From Hyella patelloides LEGE 07179 (GTDB lineage Bacteria > Cyanobacteriota > Cyanobacteriia > Cyanobacteriales > Xenococcaceae), in assembly GCF_900659865.1 (NCBI RefSeq), contig NZ_LR213786.1, forward strand, positions 1-48,148: 48,148 nt of DNA, written 5' to 3'. A program made the position numbers and the translations under genes. This document shows positions 5,807 through 45,854 of the stretch, one piece after another (within the stretch, counting starts at the first letter, position 1; every line of letters begins with the position of its first letter). Under the pieces are notes generated by a model. The model was given only the letters and a program-made list of their open reading frames with translations, was not told where the DNA came from and did not search any database.

Positions 5807-6212
5807 TCGGGTAAAGCTCTCTAAGGAAAGAGGAACAAAATTGATGGTTGATGGTTAATTGTTGATTGCCCACTACTATTGTTTAAAGGTTTTCAATTTT
5901 TATCTCACCATGAGGCAATGCCATAAAACTTTCTTCCTTGTTTCAACAATTCTCTTTCCCTGCTCGGTAATTTTTGTCTGGGCGAATGACGGGAGGAAAT
6001 GCGGTCACGGAAAAGCGCGCTGTCTTACAACAGTCCTCTACGGAGGGAAACCCTCCTGCAAGGCTGTTGCGCTATTCCACTCCCGTGTTGACCATTCCCC
6101 CGTACGACTCCTGATTCTTAACTTATTATGATTTGAAAAGCCATTCAACTCACATTTGAGGGGATCATCTACACTGGAATTAATAAAAGCTAGTAGAAAT
6201 GACAGTAAAATT
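5807..6212. other. intergenic region holding a GC-rich structured island
   Basis: This 406-bp gap has an AT-rich start with short TGGTTGATGG-type repeats, then a GC-rich block at about 5990-6115 that contrasts with its surroundings. In that block CAACAG (6028-6033) pairs with CTGTTG (6064-6069), and GGAGGG (6042-6047) pairs with CCCTCC (6051-6056), giving a nested stem-loop. The reading frames crossing it are low-complexity artefacts. It looks like one copy of a non-coding interspersed repeat. Confidence 0.6.
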
Positions 6213-6593
6213 GTGAACAATCGCTTTAATAAACTATTACAATACGACTTCTCTGGATTAGGTTGTTGGCTAACCATTATTGCCATTGCCCTCCTTACTA
6301 GTTCTGTTGGTTTGGGCTGGATTATCAATGGCTTTTTTATTTTGGTTGCTTTGGCTTTTATTGCTCCTATTCTGATTTTTTGGGGGGTGCAATGGTGGCT
6401 AAAACTTAATTTTGTTCAAGATAATTGTCCTGTATGTAATTATGAATTTACAGGATTTAAAAATTCGGAATTTCAATGCCCTAGTTGTAGTGAACCTTTA
6501 AAAGTTACAGATGGGCATTTTGCTCGCATCACACCTCCTGGCATAATAGATGTCGATGCAGTAGAAGTCTCGGTACAGCAAATTGACGAGTGA
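6213..6593 (+). CDS. small membrane protein with zinc ribbon
   Basis: From GTG at 6213 this encodes 126 residues. I prefer this start to the TTG at 6156 because the recognisable protein begins NNRFNKLLQYDFSGLGCW, as in cyanobacterial homologues I recall. Two hydrophobic helices fill about residues 19-65 (LTIIAIALLTSSVGLGWIIN and the next stretch). A C-terminal CPVC...CPSC pair (residues about 79-103) forms a probable zinc ribbon. The tail HFARITPPGIIDVDAVEVSV is typical of this uncharacterised family. The function is unknown. The zinc ribbon after a membrane hairpin suggests a cytoplasmic protein- or nucleic-acid-binding module tethered to a membrane. Confidence 0.75.
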   Translation: MNNRFNKLLQYDFSGLGCWLTIIAIALLTSSVGLGWIINGFFILVALAFIAPILIFWGVQWWLKLNFVQDNCPVCNYEFTGFKNSEFQCPSCSEPLKVTDGHFARITPPGIIDVDAVEVSVQQIDE

Positions 6594-6644
6594 TCCCGCG
6601 CTTAATCTAGGCGTAACCGAACGCGCGATTCGTGAAGAATCAAA

Positions 6645-7085
6645 TTAATTTTTATCCGTAGATATCCTAAGAGTAAATTGGTGACGTTCTCCATAGCGAT
6701 CGCCAATATAAACATTATAAGTTCCTGCTTCCCAAACGCCAGATATTTCAGGATTTAACCCTGTATTCATATCTCCTAAAACACAAAAACTATCATCTGC
6801 TTTTGGTCCGATAACTAAGAGAGTGGGTTGTCCTCCGTTAACTTCGACAAACATTCGCATATAGTCAATGCGATTCGATAAAGATAATGTATAACTGGGA
6901 GTATTAGCCACAAAACCACAGTTTTTACTGTCCACTGGACCTCCAGAGTTACCCCGAATAGTCTGGTTATGGGTATCTGATTTTGGTGCAGCTAGTGTTG
7001 CACTGTTACTAAAAGTACTAGCAACGATTGTGAGCAACATTATAGTTTTCATCCCAAAGGCTAACCAAAATTTCATATAATTCAT
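6645..7085 (-). CDS. secreted protein with a PPC-like beta-sandwich
   Basis: This 146-residue protein has a clear Sec signal peptide: hydrophobic FGMKTIMLLTIVASTF followed by a small-residue region ending about residue 33 (TLAAP). The mature part has CGFV and FCVLGD cysteines that could form a disulfide. Segments YTLSLSNRIDYMRMFVEVNG and WEAGTYNVYIGDRYGERHQF resemble bacterial PPC-type domains, where a final Y(N/T)VxIGDR strand is common. It is probably periplasmic or extracellular and of unknown role. Its 3' end faces the zinc-ribbon gene (51 bp apart), and GATTC/GAATC at about 6628-6642 could form a weak shared terminator. Two in-frame ATGs (residues 1 and 4) are close together. Confidence 0.7.
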   Translation of the reverse strand: MNYMKFWLAFGMKTIMLLTIVASTFSNSATLAAPKSDTHNQTIRGNSGGPVDSKNCGFVANTPSYTLSLSNRIDYMRMFVEVNGGQPTLLVIGPKADDSFCVLGDMNTGLNPEISGVWEAGTYNVYIGDRYGERHQFTLRISTDKN

Positions 7086-7271
7086 ATTAAAGACAACAGC
7101 AAATACTAGGAAAAAATTAGTAAACTAGTGAACTAAGTACAGAACATCGCTCTATATGAGCGCGATTATGGCAAAAAGAGGTTTTGAAGAAAAACTTCAG
7201 AGACTTCTGTTTATTTTTAGCCTGTATTCTCTTAATCAATACCTAAACTTCCAATTTCAGCTTAATAAACA

Positions 7272-7370
7272 ATGAGACGCGATGATCCTCAAGTAGTTCC
7301 AGTTTATCAACAGTCACTTATTAGTAGTTCTGCTGAGCATTCCAGATTCTCGAAAAAAAATTGCGAATAG
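7272..7370 (+). CDS. possible 32-residue peptide or gene-start remnant
   Basis: An ATG at 7272 opens 32 codons (MRRDDPQVVPVYQQSLISSS and 12 more) ending at TAG 7368-7370. The composition is protein-like up to an eight-A run (7353-7360), after which it ends. No ribosome-binding site is evident. The start resembles the charged and Pro-rich N-termini seen before the membrane anchor in chain-length proteins, so it may be the decayed beginning of a former upstream copy. This is speculative. Confidence 0.25.
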   Translation: MRRDDPQVVPVYQQSLISSSAEHSRFSKKNCE

Positions 7371-7440
7371 ATTAAGAGATAACAGAAAATAAGAATAGTC
7401 TGTGTTAAACCATATTTAGTATTGAAAGTTGATTTTTTGG

Positions 7441-7470
7441 CACTAAGTTTCTCCTTCTAGGAGCTTAGTG
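7441..7470 (+). other. stem-loop in the leader of the BY-kinase gene
   Basis: CACTAAG (7441-7447) pairs with CTTAGTG (7464-7470), and CTCCT (7451-7455) pairs with AGGAG (7459-7463). This gives 12 base pairs interrupted only by a TTT bulge on one side, with a 3-base loop. It lies 340 bp upstream of the gene. It could be a terminator, a processing site or a regulatory RNA element; it lacks a long T-tract. Confidence 0.5.
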
Positions 7471-7810
7471 TAATTAAATAGAAAATAGTAAAAAAGATTA
7501 TTAGGAGTAAGCAACAAATAACAAAATTTTAGAATCTTTTGTGTATACCTACTCAGTAACTTTTTCTAGTCCTATATTTTTAGGAATATTTGGCTAGCAA
7601 TATTTAATTTAAAATGGTATTTTATTATCAACAGATCGATTTTATTTGATTTAGGCAAGCTTAAAAAAATTATCGATTTATTCATGATTTTTACGGACAA
7701 CTTTACTGAAACTTTAAACATTACCCTGGTTTTATAGATTATAAATTTCTATATAAGGGAAAAAATAACAGAATATCTATTTATAACTAATCGGCAAAAT
7801 AGTTGGACTT

Positions 7811-10033
7811 ATGGTAAATTCACTGACAAATAATGGTGGTTCGCAGCCAGATAATTCTTATCCTAATTATGGGTTAGAGGAATCTAGAGAATCTACTGAT
7901 ATTGAAATAGCAAGTTATTTTCAAAAATTAAAAAGACGATGGAAGCCAGCTTTAGCAGTGTTTTTACTGACAGTGGTAAGTACTTTTGCTGCCACAAGTC
8001 TCCTAGAAGAAAAATATCAAGCTGAAGGAAAGATACTTTTTAAACAAAAAAACAATCTGCTTCCCGTAGGAGAAGGGGTAGGAGAACTTACAACTTTTCT
8101 TAACAACCAAACTCCTCTTTTAACCCAACAAGAAGTAATTTCTTCAGCACCAGTCCTACAACAAACTATCGAAATTCTTAAATTAACTAATGAAGAGGGA
8201 GAAACTTTAACTGCCAAAGATTTGAGAAGGAAGCTACAAGTCGGTCTGGTTGGTGGTAGTGATGTTATTGAAATTATTTATAAAGACTCAGATCCCATTC
8301 AAGCATCTCAAGTAGTTAACACCTTAATGGATGTCTATATTAAAAATCAAGTTCGCAGTAACCAAGCAGAAACGGAGAATGCAGACAGTTTTGTAACCAC
8401 GCAAATTCCTCAAGTGGAAGACAAACTGAAACAGAACGAATCAATACTTCAAGAGTTTCGCACTAAACATAAAATTGTCGATCTACAAGAAGAGAAAAAA
8501 GTCTTAGTTGCAGAATTAGGAACTTTAAATCGCCAAATTGCCACTACAGGTTCTCAGCTAAAAGGGACTCAAGCACAAACAGCAAGTTTACAAAAGCAAT
8601 TGGGTCTTAGTTTAAATCAAGCGATCGCTGTTAGTCAGTTAGGTAATTCTCCCACAGTTCAAAGCATACTTACCGAATTAGGTAATACCGAAATTGAATT
8701 AGCCCAGGAAAGACAAAGATTTAAAGACTCTCATCCCAGTATTTCCAGTCTCTTAGAAAAAAAAGCTAACCTTCGTCAAGACATAGAACAACAAGTGGCT
8801 CAAGCCGTAGGTACGGGAGTTAAAGTCTCTGATGGCTTGTTACAAGATAATCGTTTCCAAGAAAATCCTTTAGAAAAATTTATTAACCTGAAAATTGAAG
8901 AACTTAGCCTACAGCAGCAACTAAGCTCTACCTATGATTACCAGCAAGCTTATCTCAAAAGAGCCGAACAACTACCCAAATTGGAACAAAGAGAAAGAGA
9001 GATTAACCAAAAGGTAGAAACAGCCCGCTCAACTTATGAAAACTTGTTGAGTACTCAGCAAGAGTTACAAATTCTGCGTAACAAGCAAACGGGAAATGCG
9101 GAAATTATCGAACAGGCGATCGCCCCAGAAAACGGCAGTACTGGTCGTATGGCATTAATGTTGTTAGGTATCCTCATGGGTCTACTACTATCTAACCTGA
9201 CAGCGATTTATCTGGATATGCAAGACCGCACTATCAAAACGATCGCCGACATCAAGAAAAAATTACCTTATAAAGTATTAGGTATTGTCCCTATTAATGA
9301 GCTATCCGATAGACAAGGAGTTCTTGTGCAACAAGAGCCTGATTCCTATGCCAGCGAAACTTATCGTATGATTCAGGCAAACTTGAAATTTATGACCACC
9401 CAAAGACCCCCCAAAGTGATCTTAATTACAAGCTCTGCACCAGGAGAAGGAAAATCTACCGTGACAGCTAATTTAGCTGCTGCGATCGCTCAATTAGGTC
9501 GACGAGTTCTTTTAATTGATGGTGATTTACGCAAATCATCTCAACATCAACTATGGGGAGTTAGTAATCAAGTCGGCATCAAAGACCTTGTAACTAATCA
9601 AGCATCCGTGAGAGATGTCGCTTCTAAACCGATGGCAAAGCTAGACCTCCTTACTTCAGGCATGATTCCTCCCAACCCTTTGGCACTGTTAGACTCTAAT
9701 GAAATGGGCGAGTTAGTTGCTAAAGCACGCAAAGAATACGACATTGTGTTAATTGATGCTCCACCCCTCCCAGTTACCGCAGATGTTTTAACTATTAGCA
9801 AATTGGTAGATGGCATTGTCTTTGTCAGTCGCCCTGGAGTTATAGAACACGAAAGTGCGGAACTGGCAATAGAGGCTTTAGAATCAACTAGACAGAAAGT
9901 TCTGGGTATGGTTATTAATGGTGTTAATGGCAAAGAATGTGACCGCTACTCTTACTCAGCGAAGTACGGTAAGGGTTATTTTTCTGATAAGAAATCCTCA
10001 GACAAGACTAAATCTTCAACAATAACTGTTTAA
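7811..10033 (+). CDS. polysaccharide co-polymerase fused to BY-kinase (Wzc/GumC type)
   Basis: This 740-residue inner-membrane tyrosine autokinase controls chain length and export of exopolysaccharide. A Wzz domain starts after the N-terminal tail, with TM1 at about 46-64. A long periplasmic coiled coil (about 190-430) follows, then a GumC motif and TM2 near residue 450 (LMLLGILMGLLLSNLTAIYL). The C-terminal BY-kinase has Walker A APGEGKST (543-550), Walker A' VLLIDGDLRKS and Walker B IVLIDAPPLP. The tyrosine cluster at the tail (Y713, Y715, Y719, Y723) is the expected autophosphorylation site. All catalytic motifs are present, so activity is likely. The gene leads a set with wzy- and wzx-like genes. 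No Wza-type export porin or initiating glycosyltransferase is in the window. Confidence 0.95.
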   Translation: MVNSLTNNGGSQPDNSYPNYGLEESRESTDIEIASYFQKLKRRWKPALAVFLLTVVSTFAATSLLEEKYQAEGKILFKQKNNLLPVGEGVGELTTFLNNQTPLLTQQEVISSAPVLQQTIEILKLTNEEGETLTAKDLRRKLQVGLVGGSDVIEIIYKDSDPIQASQVVNTLMDVYIKNQVRSNQAETENADSFVTTQIPQVEDKLKQNESILQEFRTKHKIVDLQEEKKVLVAELGTLNRQIATTGSQLKGTQAQTASLQKQLGLSLNQAIAVSQLGNSPTVQSILTELGNTEIELAQERQRFKDSHPSISSLLEKKANLRQDIEQQVAQAVGTGVKVSDGLLQDNRFQENPLEKFINLKIEELSLQQQLSSTYDYQQAYLKRAEQLPKLEQREREINQKVETARSTYENLLSTQQELQILRNKQTGNAEIIEQAIAPENGSTGRMALMLLGILMGLLLSNLTAIYLDMQDRTIKTIADIKKKLPYKVLGIVPINELSDRQGVLVQQEPDSYASETYRMIQANLKFMTTQRPPKVILITSSAPGEGKSTVTANLAAAIAQLGRRVLLIDGDLRKSSQHQLWGVSNQVGIKDLVTNQASVRDVASKPMAKLDLLTSGMIPPNPLALLDSNEMGELVAKARKEYDIVLIDAPPLPVTADVLTISKLVDGIVFVSRPGVIEHESAELAIEALESTRQKVLGMVINGVNGKECDRYSYSAKYGKGYFSDKKSSDKTKSSTITV

Positions 10034-35680: not shown

Positions 35681-36589
35681 ATGGCTTATTTACTTCGTTT
35701 ACTTCTGGTTTGTTCGCTCTCGATTGTGGGGATGACTTTTTTCCCCAATAGTTCCAGTTTAGCGGTGTCTCAATTAGACAGCACAGATGCATTTAGTTCG
35801 GCTTTGGAAAGGGTGAATCAAGGTGATTATGAGAAAGCTCTGCAAGATTTTACTGCGGTAATTGATTTTCAAGATGATTTAAGAGGTGTTGCCTATAGCG
35901 ATCGCTGTCTGGTAAATTTACAATTACATCATTACACTGCTGCTAAGTCTGATTGTCTTCAAGCGATTGAATTCGCTCCTGATAATTGGGAGGCTCATCT
36001 TAATTTAGGATTGGCTTATTATCAATTGAAAGAGTATCAGCCAGCTTTGATGGAAAATCAACGGGTAATTAGGCGCAATCACCGCGATTATCGTGCTTAC
36101 TACAATCAAGGCTTGGTTTATTTTGCTTTGAATGATTACCCTAAAGCGATTAATAGTTACAATTCTGCTTTAAAATTTTCTGGTTTGATTCCCCAGGAAC
36201 AACAAGCCACTATTTATACCGAGCGGGGTTTGACTTATAAGAAACTCCAACGTTACGATCTAGCGATCGCTAATTTTAAGCAAGTTATTGATTTAAACCC
36301 ACAAGATGAGTATTCTTACTTTAATTTGGCTTGTGCTGCTTATGAAGGAAAAAAGACTTTAATTGCCATTAAAAATTTTACTGAAGTAGTGCGTCTCAAT
36401 CCCGATTTTACTCAAGCATATATGAATTTAGCCGTGATTTATCATCAACTAAGACAAGATAAATTGGCATTACAAAATACAAGAATTGTTATCCAAAAAT
36501 GTCAGCAACAAGAAGATAAAATTGGTCGACGAAATGCTCTTGCTCTAGAACAGTTTATTTTACAATCTCAACCTAGTAGAATAGCTTAA
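35681..36589 (+). CDS. secreted or membrane-tethered TPR-repeat protein
   Basis: This 302-residue protein begins with a hydrophobic signal (LLRLLLVCSLSIVGMTFF, about residues 4-21), so it is exported to the periplasm or thylakoid lumen. At least seven tetratricopeptide repeats follow from about residue 40 to 275, with the canonical A/G-Y-x-A pattern (NQGDYEKALQDFTAVI; LGLAYYQLKEYQPALMENQR; RGLTYKKLQRYDLAIANFKQ; MNLAVIYHQLRQDKLALQNT). It is a scaffold for protein binding with no enzyme motif. Its last 30 bp overlap the end of the DUF928 gene tail to tail. Secreted TPR proteins often sit near CHAT-CHASE2 and DUF928 genes in cyanobacteria (recollection), so it may belong functionally to that cluster. 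Confidence 0.88.
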   Translation: MAYLLRLLLVCSLSIVGMTFFPNSSSLAVSQLDSTDAFSSALERVNQGDYEKALQDFTAVIDFQDDLRGVAYSDRCLVNLQLHHYTAAKSDCLQAIEFAPDNWEAHLNLGLAYYQLKEYQPALMENQRVIRRNHRDYRAYYNQGLVYFALNDYPKAINSYNSALKFSGLIPQEQQATIYTERGLTYKKLQRYDLAIANFKQVIDLNPQDEYSYFNLACAAYEGKKTLIAIKNFTEVVRLNPDFTQAYMNLAVIYHQLRQDKLALQNTRIVIQKCQQQEDKIGRRNALALEQFILQSQPSRIA

Positions 36590-37411
36590 ACTTAAATCAG
36601 TAGTAACCTTCGATCGAAAACGAACTTCACCAATTAGAGGCTCTTGACTTAAATTATTTAAATCAACACCCGTAGAATTGAGCAGTTGATTCCAATCACG
36701 TTCTAGTTGAAGATTATTATTAGCTAAACGCATTTGAGCTACAGTGTTTAAGGCATCGTACCAAATAGACTCGCTTCCATAAATTTTATATGCTGGTATG
36801 GCTTGATTTTGAAGTCGAGCTTCCAAATCTGGAGAGGGAATGATTCTTTTAATCCATCCTTCTACAAAATTAGCAGTAGATGAGGATGAACTACCACAGT
36901 AAACTTTGAAATACCAGCGATAGGATTTATCAGCTACTAAAGATGGTGCTGTGTTAGGAAGGCTCAAACTAATCAAACCAGGAGTTTTAGGTAGGGTAAA
37001 GGATTGGCGATTAAGATCGTTTTCCTGTTCGTCTTGGAGAACAAATTCCCCAGCAGACACTTGTTGCGAAGAATAAGGCACATAAAACCACAGGGTAGGG
37101 CGATCGCTGATTGTCGTTCCTACATTGGTGTTAGGAATCAGGGCAGTGAGTGGTATGTCGCTGGTAGGGCATAGGCTGCGACTTCCTCCTCCTGTACGTC
37201 TTCCTGGTCTACCATCTCCAGAAAAATCGAGTTGGTTGCGCTCAGATGATTCTGAGGACTGCTCTTCTGTAGCTTGATTTTGGGAAGTTATCATTGCTCT
37301 AGATTGAGCTAAAGAATCAGCAAAGCAGATTATTAGTATGAAGATGATAGTTGCGATCGATAAATTGGTTAATAATTTTGATAGCTTCATTTGGTTCTGA
37401 GTTAAATTCAA
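36560..37411 (-). CDS. secreted DUF928 protein
   Basis: This 283-residue protein has an N-terminal signal peptide (LTNLSIATIIFILIICFADS; the second ATG at residue 8 is an equally good start). A polar linker rich in Ser/Gln/Glu and GDGRPGRRTGGGSRS precedes the DUF928 domain, which starts at CPTSDIPLTALIP and contains the typical RPTLWFYVPYSSQQVSAGEF, KSYRWYFKVYCG and FVEGWIKRI. Cysteines in CPTS and VYCG may be disulfide-bonded. The family is nearly restricted to cyanobacteria and has no known function; I read it as periplasmic. It is the last gene of the CHAT-CHASE2 cluster, 62 bp after the CHAT gene and separated from it by a strong hairpin. A periplasmic partner or ligand of the CHASE2 domain is a reasonable guess. 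Confidence 0.88.
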   Translation of the reverse strand: MNLTQNQMKLSKLLTNLSIATIIFILIICFADSLAQSRAMITSQNQATEEQSSESSERNQLDFSGDGRPGRRTGGGSRSLCPTSDIPLTALIPNTNVGTTISDRPTLWFYVPYSSQQVSAGEFVLQDEQENDLNRQSFTLPKTPGLISLSLPNTAPSLVADKSYRWYFKVYCGSSSSSTANFVEGWIKRIIPSPDLEARLQNQAIPAYKIYGSESIWYDALNTVAQMRLANNNLQLERDWNQLLNSTGVDLNNLSQEPLIGEVRFRSKVTTDLSLSYSTRLRL

Positions 37412-37440: not shown

Positions 37441-37484
37441 ACCGTGAGAGAGGGCGACGGCTAGTCGCCCTCTCTAATCACGGT
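37441..37484 (-). other. strong hairpin straddling the CHAT-CHASE2 stop codon
   Basis: AGAGAGGGCGAC (37447-37458) is the exact complement of GTCGCCCTCTCT (37464-37475) around a 5-base loop. An outer ACCGTG/CACGGT pair (37441-37446 with 37479-37484) extends the stem. The stop codon of the CHAT gene (TAG, 37476-37474) is inside the structure. No U-run follows in the minus-strand direction, so it is more likely a partial terminator, an mRNA-stability element or an inserted repeat tuning DUF928 expression. Confidence 0.75.
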
Positions 37485-39843
37485 GTTGACGGAATGTCGT
37501 CCAAAAAACTATCGTTCCTGCCATAGTTACAACCACCAAAACCGAAGCAGCTATCGGGAGCCATATTCCTTTCAAGAACAGAATGTAGCCAATTCCAGGA
37601 ATAACTAATAAAGTAGTGGTAACAGCAATTCCTCGATATACAGAAGAGATCAAATAAAAAAACCAAAATCCTGTTACTAGAGAACATCCCCAGAGTAAAA
37701 TAACTTCCCCCCATTCAGGTAACCATGTTAGTAAAGGGCGATCGTCTCGAACAGCACTTAAAATCTGACTCACCATATGAGCGTGAACTATTACTCCTGC
37801 TATTTCTGGCTGCTCTGCGGTGCGATTTGATGTGAAATGATAGTCTTTGAAACTGGGAGCGGTAGTACCGATTAAAATAATACGATCTTTAACCAAATTG
37901 GGCAGCTGTTTATCGAGCTTACCACTTAAAATATCGGATAAAGTTACGGTTTTGGCTACCCCAGGTGAGGCGCGATAGTTAAGTAATAGCTGATAACCCA
38001 AATCATCTACTTGATGATAGCCACCTGCCTGAGAATCTAGTTTCTTGAGAATAGTATCACCAATCTGCAAATCTCCTTGAGGATTGCGTTCAATTTCTTT
38101 CCCTTCTGGTTCAAAATAAGTTTGGGCAATTCGTAAACTAAAAGCAATATCAGCAGTGCAAACCGAGTTGGGATCCGTAGCCATACCCAATAGTTGACGG
38201 CGGATTACACCATCCGTATCCACAGGAAAATCGCTAAAGCTAACCCGCTCTTCGGGAACTCCATAGAAAGGTCTTGTACCAGACCTTTGATTTTGTTCTT
38301 CTGTACCTACTTCGCAGACAGTAATCAAGCTATCTTCATTTTGAATCAATTCAATTAAATCTGTACGACCATTGTCGAGGAGAAACTCACGATATATATC
38401 TAAACCGATAACTCTGGGTTGATGAGATTGTAGTTTTTGTAAAAGTTCTGCCAAGGAACGATCTGAGATTGATGTTCCCAATCTTTCTTGAAGTGGTTGA
38501 TTTTGTACGTCTGCTTCGGTCACGGTGACTACCAGCATTCGAGGATCAGGAGGTTCTGCTGGACGTGAATTAACTAAGCGGTCGTAGGTTGCTAATTCCC
38601 ATAGCTGTAATGCTCCTAGCTGTCGTAATCCCATAACTAAGGTAGTAGCGACAAAACTAGCTAGCAATAAAGCTGGCAAACTTAATTGACGATAGTTTAA
38701 ACCACGATCGCCTTTTAGGGAAGTATTGAAATCTTTCCAGGTGGGCGTTCGAGCAGCAGGATTTTGACAAATTACTGGTAGCCAAGTAGCACAGGGATAT
38801 TCTGTCTCCAGTGGCTCTAATTTTTCTCTGGCTTCTCTAACCGCAGTATATAAAGATTGTCCTTGAGAAAAGACAGCTAAAAAATAACGAAAGAATTCTT
38901 GAGCTACCTGATTTGGTACAGATTCTCGCATTACGATCACCTGGGGAATGTGTAAATCTGCTAGAGATTGTGCCAACCCCAAACCATCGCAGGAATTAAA
39001 GATTGCTAGTTTTAAACCCCGAGAGATTGCTCTTTTTAAACCATGACGTAACTGCTCCAGAGTAATAGTTTCAGTTTGATTAATAAAAATCCAACCTGTT
39101 TCGGATTCAGTTTGGCTATGTCCAGCAAAAAACAAAATATCCCAGCCTTGTTCTGCCCATAGCTGCTCGTTCAACTTTTGAAGCCCAGGAGATTCAAGAA
39201 AAACGGTAGTGGTATCAGGTAAAGTTTCAATTGCGCTACGGTCTGCCTGTAAATCAAGGTCATCGCTATTGCCAAAAATAGCTAAGATTCTCGCTTTTTC
39301 ACCAGAACTTGACTGTGGTTCGATGCGTCCGTATTCCAAGGTGCTTAGAGCAAGCTCTGCTTGGGGGTAATCTTCAAAAAAATTCCAGAGATGCCAAGGA
39401 AGTCTTCTGAGCAGAGGATTGTTTGTTTCGATAATTACTCTAATTTCTGCTTTGGGATTTAAAATGCGACTCAGTTTGCGATCTATCGGATGAAATGAGG
39501 CAGAATCTAGCCATTTATTGAATTGAGTGGTTAATTGCTGGCAGAGTTCATAGAATTCAACTTCCGAAAAATAGGTTATTCCCCCAGATTCGATTTTAAT
39601 TTCTCTGATTGAATGCCAACTTCGTTCTCGATAAAACTCTTGGTAGAGTAGTTTCCATTGTCGATATAGTTGCTCGATTTCTGGTGCTGGGGGTAAGCTG
39701 CCACGAATTTGCAATGGTTTGGGCGCAACAAATTTATCTGATAAATTCCTAACTGACATATTAGAGGAAACCTGAGCGGTAATCTCTCCAAAGCCATGTT
39801 GTAAATTTCCCGAACCCAAATTAATCGAAACAGCCCAACTCAT
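37474..39843 (-). CDS. CHAT protease-CHASE2 membrane receptor
   Basis: This is a 789-residue protein. The N-terminal ~370 residues are cytoplasmic and carry a CHAT (caspase-like) domain. The predicted dyad is H242 in DILFFAGHSQTE and C285 in LAIFNSCDGLGLAQSLA, both intact, with IPQVIVMRESVPNQVAQEFF next. A first membrane helix (about 388-407) leads to an extracytoplasmic CHASE2 domain (about 410-700: WELATYDRLVNSRP, VIGLDIYREF, VDTDGVIRRQ, IILIGTTAPSFKDYHFT). Three C-terminal helices (about 713-785) follow. CHASE2 is usually followed by a cytoplasmic output after the third helix; here only a short RQHRD-type tail follows and the output is N-terminal. I infer an extracellular signal gating protease activity. 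It lies 21 bp after the DUF1822 gene in a minus-strand cluster. Confidence 0.93.
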   Translation of the reverse strand: MSWAVSINLGSGNLQHGFGEITAQVSSNMSVRNLSDKFVAPKPLQIRGSLPPAPEIEQLYRQWKLLYQEFYRERSWHSIREIKIESGGITYFSEVEFYELCQQLTTQFNKWLDSASFHPIDRKLSRILNPKAEIRVIIETNNPLLRRLPWHLWNFFEDYPQAELALSTLEYGRIEPQSSSGEKARILAIFGNSDDLDLQADRSAIETLPDTTTVFLESPGLQKLNEQLWAEQGWDILFFAGHSQTESETGWIFINQTETITLEQLRHGLKRAISRGLKLAIFNSCDGLGLAQSLADLHIPQVIVMRESVPNQVAQEFFRYFLAVFSQGQSLYTAVREAREKLEPLETEYPCATWLPVICQNPAARTPTWKDFNTSLKGDRGLNYRQLSLPALLLASFVATTLVMGLRQLGALQLWELATYDRLVNSRPAEPPDPRMLVVTVTEADVQNQPLQERLGTSISDRSLAELLQKLQSHQPRVIGLDIYREFLLDNGRTDLIELIQNEDSLITVCEVGTEEQNQRSGTRPFYGVPEERVSFSDFPVDTDGVIRRQLLGMATDPNSVCTADIAFSLRIAQTYFEPEGKEIERNPQGDLQIGDTILKKLDSQAGGYHQVDDLGYQLLLNYRASPGVAKTVTLSDILSGKLDKQLPNLVKDRIILIGTTAPSFKDYHFTSNRTAEQPEIAGVIVHAHMVSQILSAVRDDRPLLTWLPEWGEVILLWGCSLVTGFWFFYLISSVYRGIAVTTTLLVIPGIGYILFLKGIWLPIAASVLVVVTMAGTIVFWTTFRQHRD

Positions 39844-39864: not shown

Positions 39865-40833
39865 TTACAAGACAAAATTTTCCTGAACTGTGACCTCATC
39901 AAGAGTGATTTCGAGCCTAAAGAGATCGCCTTGCTGACCGCTAAATCTACGTAATTGAGTATAGTTATTAAGACTACCAGATACAGTTTCTTGAAGTATT
40001 TTACCTGAAGGGGAAAGCATCTTTAATTTTAAGTTCTTGGGTAGATAAAGTGTTCCACTGCTAGGATATATTTGCACCAAAACATTAATCGTATCGTCTG
40101 GTTGAGTAGTTAGTGCCAATGCCAACACCACTGAATCTTTGCCTAGTTGTATTCCCAGGTCGATCGCCTTAGCCCGTTTAACTTTTTTTTCTGGTTGCTC
40201 CATGTCCCTCACTACTACTGGTTGAGCATAATTTACTTTAATTAAGGTTTCTACTGTCTGCCAGCCTATTGCTACAACTCCCTCAAACCAGTCACTAAGC
40301 TTAATAGCTGGCTGATGTGCTACTTTTGATACTAAAGAGAAAGAAGAGCGAGATACACTCTGTTTAAGCTGATGGAGATATTCGGGAAATTCTTCAAGCG
40401 ATCGCAGTTGAGCCAGAGGTATCTGTGCTGAAGCAGTAGTAGTAAATCCTAAAATTACGGCTTGTTGGAGAGAATGAGAAAGCTTCACTGCAACATAGCC
40501 AATTCTATCCGAGTAGACATCTGGGGGAATATCTAAATTTTCTGCATTTGGTAGTACAGGACGACACTCTAACTGACCTAATTGTGGTAAAGAGATGTCT
40601 GCCACGTCCAGAGATTTGAGTAAGAGAGGATTGAAACTATCACTATCGAGCAAATTAGTTTCAATTGACAAGCATTGAAGATAAAAGTTGACGGCACATA
40701 CAGCTAAAATATTTAGATACACTTGCTTGGCTTTAGCTGCACTATTTTGTAGCTGACTATATTTTTGCGCTAAATTGTGATCGATGGGACTTAGAGGAAC
40801 GGTAAAGGTAAAAGTTGAAATTAGCTCTTTCAT
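39865..40833 (-). CDS. DUF1822 family protein
   Basis: This 322-residue protein has the DUF1822 start: FTVPLSPIDHNLAQKYSQLQ, then KAKQVYLNILAVCAVNFYLQ and CLSIETNLLDSDSFNPLLL. A middle block follows, LGQLECRPVLPNAENLDIPP with DRIGYVAVKL. The C-terminal half (ALALTTQPDDTINVLVQIYP to the end) looks like a beta-sandwich. There is no signal peptide or membrane helix, so it is cytoplasmic. The family is known only from cyanobacteria and has no assigned role. Its gene is between the sigma-like gene (71 bp upstream) and the CHAT-CHASE2 gene (21 bp downstream), the tight spacing of an operon. Possible roles are a substrate, adaptor or inhibitor of the CHAT protease (inference). Confidence 0.9.
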   Translation of the reverse strand: MKELISTFTFTVPLSPIDHNLAQKYSQLQNSAAKAKQVYLNILAVCAVNFYLQCLSIETNLLDSDSFNPLLLKSLDVADISLPQLGQLECRPVLPNAENLDIPPDVYSDRIGYVAVKLSHSLQQAVILGFTTTASAQIPLAQLRSLEEFPEYLHQLKQSVSRSSFSLVSKVAHQPAIKLSDWFEGVVAIGWQTVETLIKVNYAQPVVVRDMEQPEKKVKRAKAIDLGIQLGKDSVVLALALTTQPDDTINVLVQIYPSSGTLYLPKNLKLKMLSPSGKILQETVSGSLNNYTQLRRFSGQQGDLFRLEITLDEVTVQENFVL

Positions 40834-40904: not shown

Positions 40905-41588
40905 TTACGCTTGTAAATACTTTTTAAAATAAGGCATCAATTTTTTCAATCGACGATTAAAAAAACTACAGAGTGTTGTCGGCGAAATATCAAACTCATC
41001 GGCAAGTTCTGTCCAATTTCGCTCTTCAATAAATTTTGCTTTAGCTAATACTTGAAAAGTTATAAATGGTCGATTTTTTACAAATTCTGACCCCATTAAT
41101 CTTTCTGGATCTTGTTCGATAAATTGCCGTAATAATACTTCATCATTAGAAACTTTTTGAACTGATAAACGCTCATCTAAATCATCTAAATTGGGAATAA
41201 AAATTGTCTCCTTTTGCCGAATTTTAGGAATGTTGGTGATGCCTTTTTTACGATAGTCATTAACTACGTTAATAAACTGTTTCTGTAAGCGAAAATTGAC
41301 CCAAGCCATTACTGGATGTTGAGGATTATAAAAATCGATACGATGGCAAACTTCTAGAAGAGTTCTTTGTAATGCCTCATGATAAACTTCTGTGTAAAAA
41401 TTGACTGACCAAGAACCATTTTGAGGATGACCTAATTTAGGAGATTGCCAAATTTCATTCACTAATCGACTAATAGCTAACTGTCTTTGACTACTCTGAG
41501 ATGGGTATTTTTGAGCTTCAATAGCCAATTTTTTGAGGTATTCTTCACGTTCTTTGCTATTTAAATTATTTTCTGAAAACTCACTCAC
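40905..41588 (-). CDS. sigma-70-like transcription factor
   Basis: This 227-residue protein resembles short sigma-70 family factors. A region-2-like part (about 60-120: EVYHEALQRTLLEVCHRIDF, then MAWVNFRLQKQFINVVNDYR) precedes a linker, and a region-4-like helix-turn-helix is at the end (about 188-222: NWTELADEFDISPTTLCSFF followed by NRRLKKLMPYFKKYL). Region 2 lacks an obvious strong -10 recognition helix, so it could be a divergent ECF-type sigma factor or a DNA-binding regulator derived from one. It appears first in the compact set sigma-DUF1822-CHAT-CHASE2-DUF928 and probably controls, or is controlled by, that set. No anti-sigma factor is seen; proteolytic control by the CHAT domain is an appealing but untested possibility. 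Confidence 0.75.
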   Translation of the reverse strand: MSEFSENNLNSKEREEYLKKLAIEAQKYPSQSSQRQLAISRLVNEIWQSPKLGHPQNGSWSVNFYTEVYHEALQRTLLEVCHRIDFYNPQHPVMAWVNFRLQKQFINVVNDYRKKGITNIPKIRQKETIFIPNLDDLDERLSVQKVSNDEVLLRQFIEQDPERLMGSEFVKNRPFITFQVLAKAKFIEERNWTELADEFDISPTTLCSFFNRRLKKLMPYFKKYLQA

Positions 41589-41716: not shown

Positions 41717-42343
41717 CTAAATAGTCTGAGAGGAAAAAATAGCATTCTTTAAAAAAGAAAAATTTTGTTTTTGCTTGAAATTAAAATGATAATTAGACAA
41801 GATATTTGAGCTTTCCTTACACTGTGTTTTTTTAGATAAACAGCTTTCTATATTAGTCGATATTTTTTTTAAAACATATTTAGTCACTAGAGAGCGACAG
41901 TTTTTTTTAGTAATACGACATTCGATTAATTTAGAAAGCTTTTTAAATAACTTTGGTGCAGCCACATTAGTAAAGTAATCAGAACTATAGTTATTTTCTC
42001 TGGCAATTTCACTATAGGTTTTGTTTTGCCAAACACCCTCTAAGATCAACACTTCTACTGTACCAGGAGATTTATCATACATCTCTAAGAACAAGATATC
42101 TAGAGTTTCAATAACCAGATTAAAACTCAGGGAGTAGACATATCTATCAAAAGTTTCTTCTATTCGATCCGTATCAGCAAAATCGCAACTAGAATGCTCT
42201 TGGTAATTAGATATCTTGTGATGAAAATCGGTTTTACTTGATTGGTTACTTAGCATAAAATTCAATTTTGGATCGTAAAATGCGATCGCTAAAATGGGAA
42301 AAATCATAACAGCTAGATCGCTTACTTGTTGCTTAGCTTGCAA
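41717..42343 (-). CDS. HTH protein resembling the vMAP-type N-terminal adaptor
   Basis: This 208-residue frame probably starts at the ATG at 42256 (residue 30), since the first 29 residues are atypical. Residues about 70-150 match a module I recall at the N-terminus of cyanobacterial vWA-MoxR-associated and NB-ARC/AAA conflict proteins: GTVEVLILEGVWQNKTYSEI, NYSSDYFTNVAAPKLFKKLS, then RITKKNCRSLV. In those proteins it precedes an ATPase or effector; here it stands alone with a Lys/Ser/Asn-rich tail (SNILSNYHFNFKQKQNFSFL). It may be a DNA-binding or adaptor component for the CHAT system, or a broken remnant of a larger protein. It is 128 bp upstream of the sigma-like gene on the same strand. 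Confidence 0.6.
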   Translation of the reverse strand: MQAKQQVSDLAVMIFPILAIAFYDPKLNFMLSNQSSKTDFHHKISNYQEHSSCDFADTDRIEETFDRYVYSLSFNLVIETLDILFLEMYDKSPGTVEVLILEGVWQNKTYSEIARENNYSSDYFTNVAAPKLFKKLSKLIECRITKKNCRSLVTKYVLKKISTNIESCLSKKTQCKESSNILSNYHFNFKQKQNFSFLKNAIFSSQTI

Positions 42344-42728: not shown

Positions 42729-45700
42729 ATGAAAGAGATTTTTAAAACAGTATTTTTCTTATTTACTCTATTATTTCCTCTTAGTGCTACTGCTCAAATA
42801 ACCAGAGATGGCACCACTTCCACGACAGTTACTCTTACAGAAACGGGAGTACGCATCGATAATGGAAATCGCGCTGGCGGTAACTTATTTCATAGCTTTG
42901 ATGAGTTTTCGCTCCCCACAGAAAGTGAAGCTTTTTTCAACAATGCCAATGATATAACTAATATTTTCTCTCGAGTTACAGGGGGTAATATTTCTAACAT
43001 TGATGGTTTAATTCGTGCTAACGGTACAGCTAATTTATTTTTAATCAACCCCGCAGGAATTATTTTTGGAGAAGGTGCAAGTTTGCAACTAGGCGGTTCG
43101 TTTTATGGCAGTACTGCTAGTAGTATTGTGTTTCCCGATGGGGAATTTAGCGCGACAGATTTAGATAATCCGCCTTTGATTACGGTTAACGCACCTATTG
43201 GTTTAGGGTTTCGAGATAACCCAGCAGAGATTGTTAATACCTCTGTAGGTCGAAATCCCAACGGCGAAACTAATATTATTGATGATCCAGTAGGGTTACA
43301 AGTCCCTAATGGTGAAATTTTAGCTCTTATTGGTGGTGATGTTTTACTTGACGATGGTAATTTAACAGCAAAAGGTGGTCATATTGAAATTGGTAGTGTG
43401 AGGAGTGCTGGAGAAGTCGGTATCATTGAAACAGATATTGGCTTTACTTTAGATTACGATGGGATAGCTTCTTTTGATGATATTACATTACAGAATACAG
43501 CAGTTGTCGATGTTACTGCTAGTGGTGGTGGCAGTGTTAATGTTACAGCGCAAAATATAACATTAGATAACAGTTCAATTAGCTCTGGAATAGCTCCAGA
43601 TTCAACTTCTAATGATGCTCAAGCAGGAGATATTGTAATTCAGGTTACTGAGAATCTAACTCTAGATCGAAGCTATATTCTCAATCTGGTAGATGGAGTG
43701 GGTAATTCAGGCAAGATCGAGATTACCACTGGTTCGGTGGAAGTAAGCAATGGAGGACAAATTTCTTCTAGTACTTTTATCGGTCAAGGAAACGCAGGAG
43801 GAATCACTATTACTGCGAAAGGAGATGTGACTTTTGATGGGATTGATGATAGTACTGAAGCTCCTAGTGGGGCTATTAGTGTGGTTATACCAGGAGCAGA
43901 GGGAAATAGTGGGGACATTAAAATCTCTGCTGCCAATTTGAATCTCACCAATGGAGGGCTAGTTGATGCTAGTGCATTTGGTCAAGGCAATGCAGGAGAT
44001 GTGAGTATCACTACCAACAATCTGAATCTCACCAATGGAGCAACAATTGCTACCAATACATTTGGTCAAGGCAATGGTGGAAACATTGAGATTGATGCCA
44101 CCACAGTATCTGTGTTGGAAGGAGCATCTTTGGAATCTAATGTCGGTGGTTTTGCCAGAGGAGAAGCTGGGGATATTACGATCAAAGCCAATGATGTTGT
44201 CTTTAATGGTGGTTTTGCCCGAAGTAGATTGGAAGCAGGCGGAGAAGGCAGTGCTGGGGATATTCAGATTACTACTGGTTCGCTTTTAGTCACAGGAATT
44301 CCTCCAGAATTAATCAGTAGTAATATTGGTCAATTGGTTACTGCCAGTTTTGGACAAGGGGATGCAGGCAACTTAACAATAGATGCTAGTGGAGATGTGG
44401 TCTTTGATGGACTACGCAGCGATGTCTTCAGCCTAATAGGAGGAAACTTAGAAAATCCCAATATTCCTCCAGCAGAAGGCAATGGGGGGAATATTACAAT
44501 TAGGAGCAGCTCCCTATCAATTGATAATCAAGCTCGATTAGTCAACACAACCGAAGGTGTTGGGGATGCAGGTAACATCAATATTAATACCGATTCGTTA
44601 TCTATTAGCAACGGGGGAAGTTTATTGACGCAGGTCGATGGTATTGCCAGAGGTGATGCAGGTGATATGACAATCGAGACAGGAACAGTTGAGATTGGTA
44701 ATGGAGGAAGGTTGGATGCTCGTACTGCGGGAACAGGAAATGCTGGCAATATCATCATTAAAGCTGCTGGTTCTCTTAGCTTAGCGGGAGAAGATAATCT
44801 CGATAGCGAATCACAAAGTACAATAACCACAAGCGTAGGAGCTACAGCTATCGGTAAAGGAGGAGAGTTAAAAATTACGACTCCCCAACTAGAAATTAGA
44901 GATGGGGCAGCCATCAGGGCTGATGCGGAAGGACAAGGAAATGCGGGCAATATTGAAATTTTTACTGGTGATTTGACTCTGAGTGATAGAGGACAAGTTG
45001 TGGCTGGAACATTAGGGAAAGGGAATGCAGGGAACATTCGCATTGAAGCCAATTCGATTGATTTAGTCAATGGAGCCACCATTAATGCAGTGAGTCAATC
45101 GGAATCGGAAACTGATGATAGTGCTAATATCACTCTCGAAGTTGCTGAAGCTCTTACCCTCAGAAATAATAGTCTGATATCCGCTCAAGCCCTAGAAAAT
45201 GCTAATGGTGGAAATGTCTCCATCAACAGTGAATTTATTATTTCTTATCCCAGCAGTGGTAATGGTAATGGCAATGATATTCTTGCTAGTGCCGAACAAG
45301 GTAATGGTGGCAGAATCAGTATCACAGCAGAGTCTCTACTAGGAATTGAAGAACGTAGAGCATTTGACAACAACGCCACTAACGATATCGATGCTAGTTC
45401 TGAAGTAGACGGTTTAGACGGTACAGTTTCTATCGAAACCCCTGATAATAATTCTTTGCGAGAAACCACCGAACTATCGGATAACATCGTCTCCGCAGAG
45501 ATTATTACAGCATCTGATATTTGTTCGGCATCTGATATCGAAGATGTTTCTAGTCTTACAATTCAAGGACAAGACAGAGTGCCTCACGAACCCACTGCAC
45601 CCTTTGATGGCGATGCTTTAATTATTTATGGGGAACCAGAAACATTAGCTCTGCCTCAAAGTAATGGTAACCACATAGATTCCAATAACATTCCACATTA

Positions 45701-45854
45701 TGTAAAGCCAGTAGCATACAAAGATAATGGGGAACCAATTTATCTTGCCAGAGGAGTAATTAAACAAGAAGATGGAACTGTTATTTTAACTGCCGTTCCC
45801 CATCAAAATATCACGTCTCGAACTCCTGAAAATCCTTATGGTTGTGGTCAATAA
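42729..45854 (+). CDS. filamentous haemagglutinin-type adhesin (two-partner secretion exoprotein)
   Basis: This 1041-residue secreted protein has a signal peptide at 1-22 (VFFLFTLLFPLSATA), then the TPS/haemagglutination domain at about 25-140, with LFHSFDEFSLPTES and the N107-PAGIIFG-114 motif. A right-handed beta-helix follows, built of repeats of the form GQGNAGxIxIxxxxLxLxNGAxIxx (for example SITTNNLNLTNGATIATNTF), to about residue 890. The tail has the two-cysteine region seen in cyanobacterial relatives (ASDICSASDIEDVSSLTIQG and the final NPYGCGQ). It would cross the outer membrane through an FhaC/ShlB-type partner, which is not in the window. The role is probably surface adhesion or aggregation. 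It is divergent from the CHAT-CHASE2 cluster. Confidence 0.93.
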   Translation: MKEIFKTVFFLFTLLFPLSATAQITRDGTTSTTVTLTETGVRIDNGNRAGGNLFHSFDEFSLPTESEAFFNNANDITNIFSRVTGGNISNIDGLIRANGTANLFLINPAGIIFGEGASLQLGGSFYGSTASSIVFPDGEFSATDLDNPPLITVNAPIGLGFRDNPAEIVNTSVGRNPNGETNIIDDPVGLQVPNGEILALIGGDVLLDDGNLTAKGGHIEIGSVRSAGEVGIIETDIGFTLDYDGIASFDDITLQNTAVVDVTASGGGSVNVTAQNITLDNSSISSGIAPDSTSNDAQAGDIVIQVTENLTLDRSYILNLVDGVGNSGKIEITTGSVEVSNGGQISSSTFIGQGNAGGITITAKGDVTFDGIDDSTEAPSGAISVVIPGAEGNSGDIKISAANLNLTNGGLVDASAFGQGNAGDVSITTNNLNLTNGATIATNTFGQGNGGNIEIDATTVSVLEGASLESNVGGFARGEAGDITIKANDVVFNGGFARSRLEAGGEGSAGDIQITTGSLLVTGIPPELISSNIGQLVTASFGQGDAGNLTIDASGDVVFDGLRSDVFSLIGGNLENPNIPPAEGNGGNITIRSSSLSIDNQARLVNTTEGVGDAGNININTDSLSISNGGSLLTQVDGIARGDAGDMTIETGTVEIGNGGRLDARTAGTGNAGNIIIKAAGSLSLAGEDNLDSESQSTITTSVGATAIGKGGELKITTPQLEIRDGAAIRADAEGQGNAGNIEIFTGDLTLSDRGQVVAGTLGKGNAGNIRIEANSIDLVNGATINAVSQSESETDDSANITLEVAEALTLRNNSLISAQALENANGGNVSINSEFIISYPSSGNGNGNDILASAEQGNGGRISITAESLLGIEERRAFDNNATNDIDASSEVDGLDGTVSIETPDNNSLRETTELSDNIVSAEIITASDICSASDIEDVSSLTIQGQDRVPHEPTAPFDGDALIIYGEPETLALPQSNGNHIDSNNIPHYVKPVAYKDNGEPIYLARGVIKQEDGTVILTAVPHQNITSRTPENPYGCGQ

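Follow-up and report, generated by a model that had tools for sequence, protein, structure and literature searches.

How does a CHASE2 receptor pass on its signal when almost nothing follows its C-terminal membrane helices? The question is raised by a reverse-strand gene in positions 1 to 48,148 of contig NZ_LR213786.1 of the cyanobacterium Hyella patelloides LEGE 07179 (assembly GCF_900659865.1), a stretch of 48,148 nucleotides that we refer to as the window herein. A first-pass annotation of the window described the gene product as a CHASE2 receptor whose output is an N-terminal CHAT protease domain, and had the signal travel to the protease through the first transmembrane helix (TM1). We find that the receptor observation is real and that its layout is already published. 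We propose, tentatively and at slightly less than an even chance, that the protein is the receptor-protease of a one-operon relay, in which CHAT cuts an inhibitor of the DUF1822 family and an extracytoplasmic function (ECF)-type sigma factor is freed. We make this proposal because of the fold of the CHAT module and its catalytic dyad, the genomic linkage to DUF1822 and sigma-like genes, the exchange of sensors behind CHAT, a fusion found in locus L060, and the precedent of the protease Csx29.

The gene was recovered as annotated, as a 789-aa open reading frame (ORF) with an ATG start (Table 1). Pfam matched CHAT (PF12770, clan CD) to residues 110–354 (53.6 bits; cut-off 24) and CHASE2 (PF05226) to residues 399–725 (198.4 bits; cut-off 26.3), and detected no other enzymatic domain in the receptor, leaving CHAT as the sole output candidate; the last helix stops one residue short of the C-terminus. 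The two predicted catalytic residues, H242 and C285, stand in the context that the annotation had given, AGHSQ from residue 240 and NSCDG from residue 283. A scan of genome contigs yielded 57 loci with relatives, 49 of which, together with the window protein and two more H. patelloides genes, L006 and L008, form the 52 rows of an alignment termed A1. It excludes L049 (the same as L044), L053 (broken frame), L057, L058 and L060 (no CHASE2) and L061, L062 and L066 (fragments); L018 and L036 were retained despite a short C-terminus. In A1 the dyad positions hold, with A240, G241, H242, F282, N283 and C285 each present in 52 of 52 rows. The His and Cys were also present in 108 of the 110 distinct-sequence CHAT ORFs of the fetched loci, the other two ending before the site; only identical sequences were merged for this count, so incomplete versions of a single gene, lying at locus edges, account for a few of its members. 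In the excluded L053 the CHAT-CHASE2 gene (6001–8345) runs as two overlapping ORFs, owing either to gene breakage or to faulty assembly.

To compare folds, we used an AlphaFold2 (AF2) model of the receptor built from A1, with a mean predicted local distance difference test score (pLDDT) of 87.8 and a predicted template modelling score (pTM) of 0.57. Using VIA-align, residues 1–375 of the model aligned as one unit with separase 5fc2_B (Z 22.6, 317 residues, 4.3 Å), and residues 1–365 aligned with Csx29 8d9f_A (Z 21.0, 288 residues, 3.3 Å). The top Foldseek match was Csx29 in its Csx30-bound complex (E 2.1e-9). The catalytic half (185–361) has 177 residues, fewer than the 288–317 that align, so about 100 or more of the aligned residues have to come mostly from the N-terminal alpha/beta half. 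This half corresponds in Csx29 to the pseudo-caspase part named CHAT1 in PMC10028731 (this and the other papers cited by PMC number are drawn on for part of their text). The spacing of H242 and C285 is 43, against 43 for H615/C658 of Csx29 and 42 for H585/C627, and we equated the dyad with that of Csx29 by fold, spacing and strand position. Sequence searches gave no match to relevant solved chains for the receptor, the CHAT module or DUF1822. On the strength of the model, the receptor CHAT is a separase/Csx29-type protease module, for which proteolysis is the predicted activity.

A CHAT fold could also serve CHASE2 as a regulated binding or scaffold domain whose catalysis goes unused. Structural comparison brought up DdvA, a transmembrane anti-sigma protein that we take to be linked to Myxococcus DdvS. 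Its residues ~706–991 (PDB 8rot, 8rw5) adopt a CHAT-like fold (Z ~15), so such folds do occur in sigma control. A scaffold, however, would not need the dyad, which is kept in 108 of 108 covering ORFs across several sensor kinds, and we consider this explanation highly improbable.

If CHAT is a protease, its neighbours may include its substrate. The operon reads in the order sigma-like gene, DUF1822, receptor-protease and DUF928, all on the minus strand, with gaps of 71 nt between the sigma-like gene and DUF1822, 21 nt between DUF1822 and the receptor, and 62 nt between the receptor and DUF928. CHAT-module matches were found in 40 of 117 surveyed genomes (E ≤ 0.001, some only weak). The 88 strongest places, counted after merging two split matches and setting aside weaker places and second fragments, score at least ~114 bits and fall in 37 of these 40 genomes; at 60 of the 88, a DUF1822 gene of the same strand lies no more than 600 nt upstream. 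DUF1822 was upstream of 10 of 18 CHAT ORFs longer than 900 aa and of 5 of 13 shorter than 700 aa, fragments included. For the neighbours of CHASE2 we used the best 150 CHASE2 places, the window copy ranking just below them. Among those listed, a same-strand DUF1822 was present no further than 3 kb away at 14 of 18 CHAT-CHASE2 places versus 0 of 132 other CHASE2 places. DUF928 was present within 2.5 kb at 15 of 18 versus 50 of 132, as judged from 150 DUF928 places among the matches listed, of which more exist. Since, among the listed places, DUF1822 occurs beside CHAT-CHASE2 alone and DUF928 beside both kinds of CHASE2 protein, DUF1822 appears to track the protease and DUF928 the sensor. DUF928 may be an extracytoplasmic (periplasmic) partner or ligand of CHASE2.

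The gene upstream of DUF1822 points to transcription. At E ≤ 0.01, 15 of the 22 members of the window's sigma-like family, the window protein included, matched the sigma70-ECF model TIGR02937 (best E 1.7e-8), and a window-type sigma-like gene is upstream in 26 of the 48 DUF1822 genes in scanned loci. The remaining 22 loci lack a window-type sigma match; 18 of them have an upstream ORF, and ten of these upstream proteins were tested, nine of which match sigma70-ECF, eight above the curated cut-off. In L060 the two functions appear to be joined: a 549-aa ORF (L060:38–1687) located 63 nt upstream of the CHAT gene contains a sigma70-ECF match at residues 123–233 (E 4.7e-4, 19.8 bits, below cut-off) and a DUF1822 C-domain at residues 449–548.

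The predicted topology puts the protease on one side of the membrane and the sensor on the other. Hydropathy and the AF2 model agree on a single helix at ~389–408 followed by three at 710–730, 734–757 and 764–788, the layout of a CHASE2 receptor, with TM1 ahead of the domain and three helices behind it. Across the 52 rows, the mean number of Lys and Arg residues is 4.5 before TM1, 1.2 in the TM2–3 loop and 0.33 in the TM3–4 loop. Helices and charges together predict both termini inside and CHASE2 outside. The annotation's central claim thus stands as far as sequence goes: the dyad occupies CHAT catalytic positions, and CHAT is predicted to be cytoplasmic.

The same cannot be said of a signal that necessarily reaches CHAT through TM1. 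The packing of this helix is conserved, with a small-residue face (S396 in 38, T400 in 40 and G405 in 42 of the 52 A1 rows) and R407 in 51 of 52, as mechanical signal passage into CHAT might lead one to expect. The connection between CHAT and TM1 argues the other way. The span from W369 to R407 ranges between 30 and 91 residues across the 52 rows, versus 16 in 52 of 52 for the control span E346–N361; among eight regions compared, the CHAT-TM1 link shows the lowest conservation (mean top-residue frequency 0.38 versus 0.71 for CHAT); and residues 377–386 have a pLDDT below 50. Moreover, the same CHAT module is used by proteins without CHASE2. Mechanical passage is consequently improbable, and we dropped rigid signalling through TM1 as unsupported by linker length, conservation and pLDDT. 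Because the linker is variable, weakly conserved and of low pLDDT, it resembles a tether rather than a lever, and a loose tether fits better with clustering or substrate recruitment than with a rigid lever. CHAT may also fold back to contact the membrane helices.

Taken together, a relay could run as follows. DUF928 and CHASE2 would sense something outside the cytoplasmic membrane, while the CHAT protease would be held at the inner membrane face by its tether. DUF1822, in which no signal peptide was seen in the window copy, would act in the cytoplasm by inhibiting the ECF-type sigma factor, whose gene lies upstream of its own. A stimulus would most likely alter the clustering or exposure of tethered CHAT rather than push TM1 rigidly. 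CHAT would then cleave DUF1822, perhaps in a disordered link, and the sigma factor would be released. In this scheme we infer how DUF1822 acts (as sigma inhibitor and as substrate), where it might be cut, what DUF928 does and how the protease is activated.

The DUF1822 model (pLDDT 87.7) has an alpha/beta N-domain and, at residues 217–321, a C-terminal beta sandwich; between them, a short helical part is flanked by two disordered links, the second at residues 203–212. Within the second link, position 209 is Arg in 81 of 89 DUF1822 sequences, some repeat-bearing rows being misaligned there. If R209 marked a cut site, it should track the protease. A first comparison found it in 5 of 7 copies lacking CHAT; after a CHAT-less subfamily was added, the larger set gave 15 of 17. 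R209 may be structural, and as a cut-site marker it was dropped from the central claim.

Several observations weigh against the relay. R209 is kept about as readily away from CHAT (15 of the 17 copies whose fetched stretch has no CHAT gene) as beside it (76 of 82). A PDB sequence search detected no relation between DUF1822 and either Csx30 or a known anti-sigma factor, and its fold matches only common beta sandwiches (best Z 7.0); the matched rows cover mostly residues 216–322 and barely the N-domain, for which no known fold was found. The linkage is incomplete in both directions, since no DUF1822 lies in the 600 nt upstream of 28 of the 88 CHAT modules, and none of these 88 modules lies just downstream at 50 of 110 DUF1822 places. 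The 110 places are drawn from the matches listed, with split matches merged and weak partial ones, nearly all from the small genomes of family f23, excluded. In the H. patelloides genome itself, L081 (the same gene as L072) has DUF1822 beside a clear sigma factor with no adjacent CHAT, showing that the two also pair up where CHAT is not a neighbour. The sigma assignment is also weak in places: the window protein scores 16.5 bits against TIGR02937 (E 0.0049; cut-off 42.9), and 7 of the 22 sigma-like family members gave no match at E ≤ 0.01, as did the upstream proteins of the own-genome loci L078 and L080. Profile comparison of the window family with the sigma factor of L081 returned a probability of 0.8%, which leaves matches of single sequences to the sigma model as the basis for assigning this family.

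Some of these points would suit a different role for DUF1822, that of a sigma adaptor or co-activator, with CHAT cleavage of DUF1822 or another partner ending the response or yielding an active fragment. DUF1822 is unlike known anti-sigma folds, and the L060 fusion indicates coupling to sigma, of either sign. Csx30, the closest studied parallel, is nevertheless inhibitory, and we rate a co-activator as unlikely.

Other DUF1822 proteins differ in setting or architecture. One subfamily has no CHAT in the fetched stretch (L112, L113, L114, L116–L119, L121, L136 and L072). Another group (L123, L127, L129, L130, L135 and L138–L140) carries an insertion that by eye resembles HEAT-type repeats, unlike the window's copy. 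Most small f23 genomes have an ORF, usually of 800–1300 aa, that weakly matches the first ~160 DUF1822 positions; none of these genomes is among the 40 with a CHAT-module match.

Sensor exchange provides a further line of evidence, and it also bears on how unusual the receptor is. The annotation presented its layout as a departure from the rule that CHASE2 proteins carry their output C-terminally. This rule holds in part: among the nine CHASE2 places of the H. patelloides genome, which also has five CHAT-module places, Pfam identifies one CHASE2-histidine kinase and one CHASE2-GGDEF-EAL protein. One AAA_35-CHASE2 protein and three CHAT-CHASE2 proteins, including that of the window, have their extra domain at the N-terminus instead. 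L003 and L007 have CHASE2 without a clear output (L007 has a UPF0014 match), and the ninth place, L009, is a short ORF. The AAA_35-CHASE2 protein (L001:1165–3828) has its domain N-terminally, and no C-terminal output was found in it. Shared by 52 aligned proteins, three of them in its own genome, and published in a 2021 eLife paper (PMC8195603), the N-terminal output does not make the receptor exceptional.

Behind CHAT, the C-terminus is variable and may be CHASE2, PBP-like, LysM, CVNH, nSTAND1 or Peripla_BP_6. The CHAT module is followed by LysM in L039 and by cyanovirin (CVNH) in L032. Among the 30 best-match survey loci fetched, 19 have CHASE2 and 11 do not. Ten of these 11 were scanned, some of them cut at the locus edge, and gave nSTAND1 in four and Peripla_BP_6 in two; one more had a tetratricopeptide repeat (TPR) match, another had pentapeptide repeats ahead of CHAT, and the last two had CHAT alone. 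CHAT is also fused to a WD40 part, assigned from sequence by eye. On contig C8 of the H. patelloides genome, L080:4453–6585 encodes a CHAT module followed by a phosphate-binding-like (PBP_like_2) sensor, with sigma-like and DUF1822 genes ~5–6 kb downstream on the same strand.

The nSTAND1 and WD40 partners recall conflict systems, and PMC8195603 frames the EACC2-caspase group as such and proposes autopeptidase activation. Under this alternative, CHAT would cleave many host proteins or trigger a death effector, and sigma and DUF1822 would merely regulate expression of the set. Several sensors, however, are extracytoplasmic ligand-binding domains, DUF1822 and sigma are linked to the CHAT module across genomes, and no toxin, pore or nuclease domain was found when nine ORFs of the operon and its surroundings were scanned, two of which had no match at all. 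The four operon proteins likewise matched no PADLOC defence model. We therefore judge a conflict or cell-death effector unlikely, and continue with the proposed relay from receptor to sigma factor.

Table 1. Coordinates of the operon genes and of the parts of the receptor-protease and DUF1822 in the window.
Feature	Position	Strand	Basis
DUF928 protein, signal-peptide-like N-terminus	36560–37411	−	Pfam 197 bits; N-terminal hydrophobic stretch
CHAT-TM-CHASE2-3TM receptor-protease, 789 aa	37474–39843	−	ORF, Pfam, AF2 model
TM2–TM4, residues 710–788	37480–37716	−	Hydropathy and AF2 model
CHASE2 sensor, predicted extracytoplasmic, residues 409–709	37717–38619	−	Pfam and AF2 model
TM1, residues 389–408	38620–38679	−	Hydropathy and AF2 model
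CHAT-TM1 variable linker, residues 370–388	38680–38736	−	Conservation, pLDDT, length spread
Catalytic CHAT half, residues 185–361	38761–39291	−	Pfam and structure alignment
Cys285 codon, predicted catalytic	38989–38991	−	A1 52/52; covering ORFs 108/108
His242 codon, predicted catalytic	39118–39120	−	A1 52/52; covering ORFs 108/108
N-terminal alpha/beta half of the protease module, residues 1–175	39319–39843	−	Structural alignment jointly with CHAT: separase, Csx29 420–750
DUF1822 protein, 322 aa; proposed sigma inhibitor and CHAT substrate	39865–40833	−	Pfam 222 bits; AF2 model
Low-confidence link of DUF1822, residues 203–212, with R209 (codon 40207–40209)	40198–40227	−	pLDDT <50; weak cleavage-site candidate
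Diverged ECF-type sigma factor-like protein, 227 aa, GTG start	40905–41588	−	sigma70-ECF E 0.0049

Two further genes border the operon. Just upstream of the sigma-like gene, a 208-aa ORF with a TTG start (41717–42343) has no Pfam match; we presume that it resembles the helix-turn-helix part of cyanobacterial NTPase proteins. At 42729–45854, divergent from the operon, is a gene for an adhesin secreted by two-partner secretion (TPS). TPS genes were present in 20 of 66 scanned loci, which makes the window's TPS gene a possible target for the sigma factor.

How, then, does this locus compare with known systems? By description, the closest published group is that of the EACC2-caspase proteins, which have an N-terminal EACC2 alpha+beta domain and a caspase, variable C-termini including CHASE2, and ECF sigma and DUF1822 neighbours (PMC8195603); the window fits this description in layout, with an N-terminal alpha/beta half and a caspase-type fold in the receptor model, CHASE2 behind them, and DUF1822 and a weak sigma match as neighbours. 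The available text of that paper does not contain CHAT as a whole word. It describes DUF1822 as a TPR protein, whereas the window's DUF1822 is modelled as an alpha/beta domain plus a beta sandwich, with no TPR, and it proposes activation as an autopeptidase, whereas here DUF1822 is the proposed substrate. In literature searches no paper paired "CHASE2" with "CHAT domain", and "CHASE2", "cyanobacteria" and "CHAT" together gave one. CHASE2 has been joined to a caspase fold before, in a Trichodesmium protein (PMC2853523) that is annotated as a metacaspase p20 rather than as CHAT. HetF of Anabaena, which is reported to have protease activity on PatU3 (PMC8406250, PMC12288457), is cyanobacterial and has an N-terminal CHAT followed by a transmembrane segment, as in the window; unlike the window protein, it has one such segment and TPRs and no CHASE2. 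Orthology to HetF was rejected, as the window protein scores 22.1 bits against NF045509 (cut-off 1200). DdvA is, like the proposed receptor, a membrane protein of sigma control with a region of CHAT-like fold; DdvS is treated in PMC12288465.

The nearest parallel with a tested mechanism is the type III-E CRISPR system in which Csx29 cleaves Csx30, the inhibitor of the ECF-like CASP-sigma (PMC10028731, PMC9729208). It shares with the window the CHAT1-CHAT2 fold, the dyad spacing, and an ECF-like sigma factor and a third protein in one locus. The inputs differ: Csx29 responds to RNA through Cas7-11 and its TPR part, whereas the window protein has a membrane CHASE2 receptor, and Pfam found no TPR N-terminal to CHAT in its 789 aa. 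By this analogy, we propose that the operon is a receptor-driven analogue of Csx29-Csx30-CASP-sigma. A broader version is doubtful, though worth stating: swappable receptors (CHASE2, phosphate-binding-like, LysM, cyanovirin and periplasmic-binding-protein-like) would all converge on a single protease of the separase type, which would free an ECF sigma factor by cutting DUF1822. Such a family would be the counterpart of the RNA-triggered Csx29-Csx30-CASP-sigma for extracellular signals, and possibly its ancestor, with EACC2 being the pseudo-caspase half of a separase-like tandem. Should the proposed relay be real, cyanobacterial membrane receptors would use a protease of the separase/caspase fold as an everyday output in place of a kinase or cyclase, and a ligand outside the cell would reach transcription in one step, through sigma release. 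It would also explain the families DUF1822 and DUF928, and would place the CRISPR Csx29-Csx30-sigma cascade in a broader setting.

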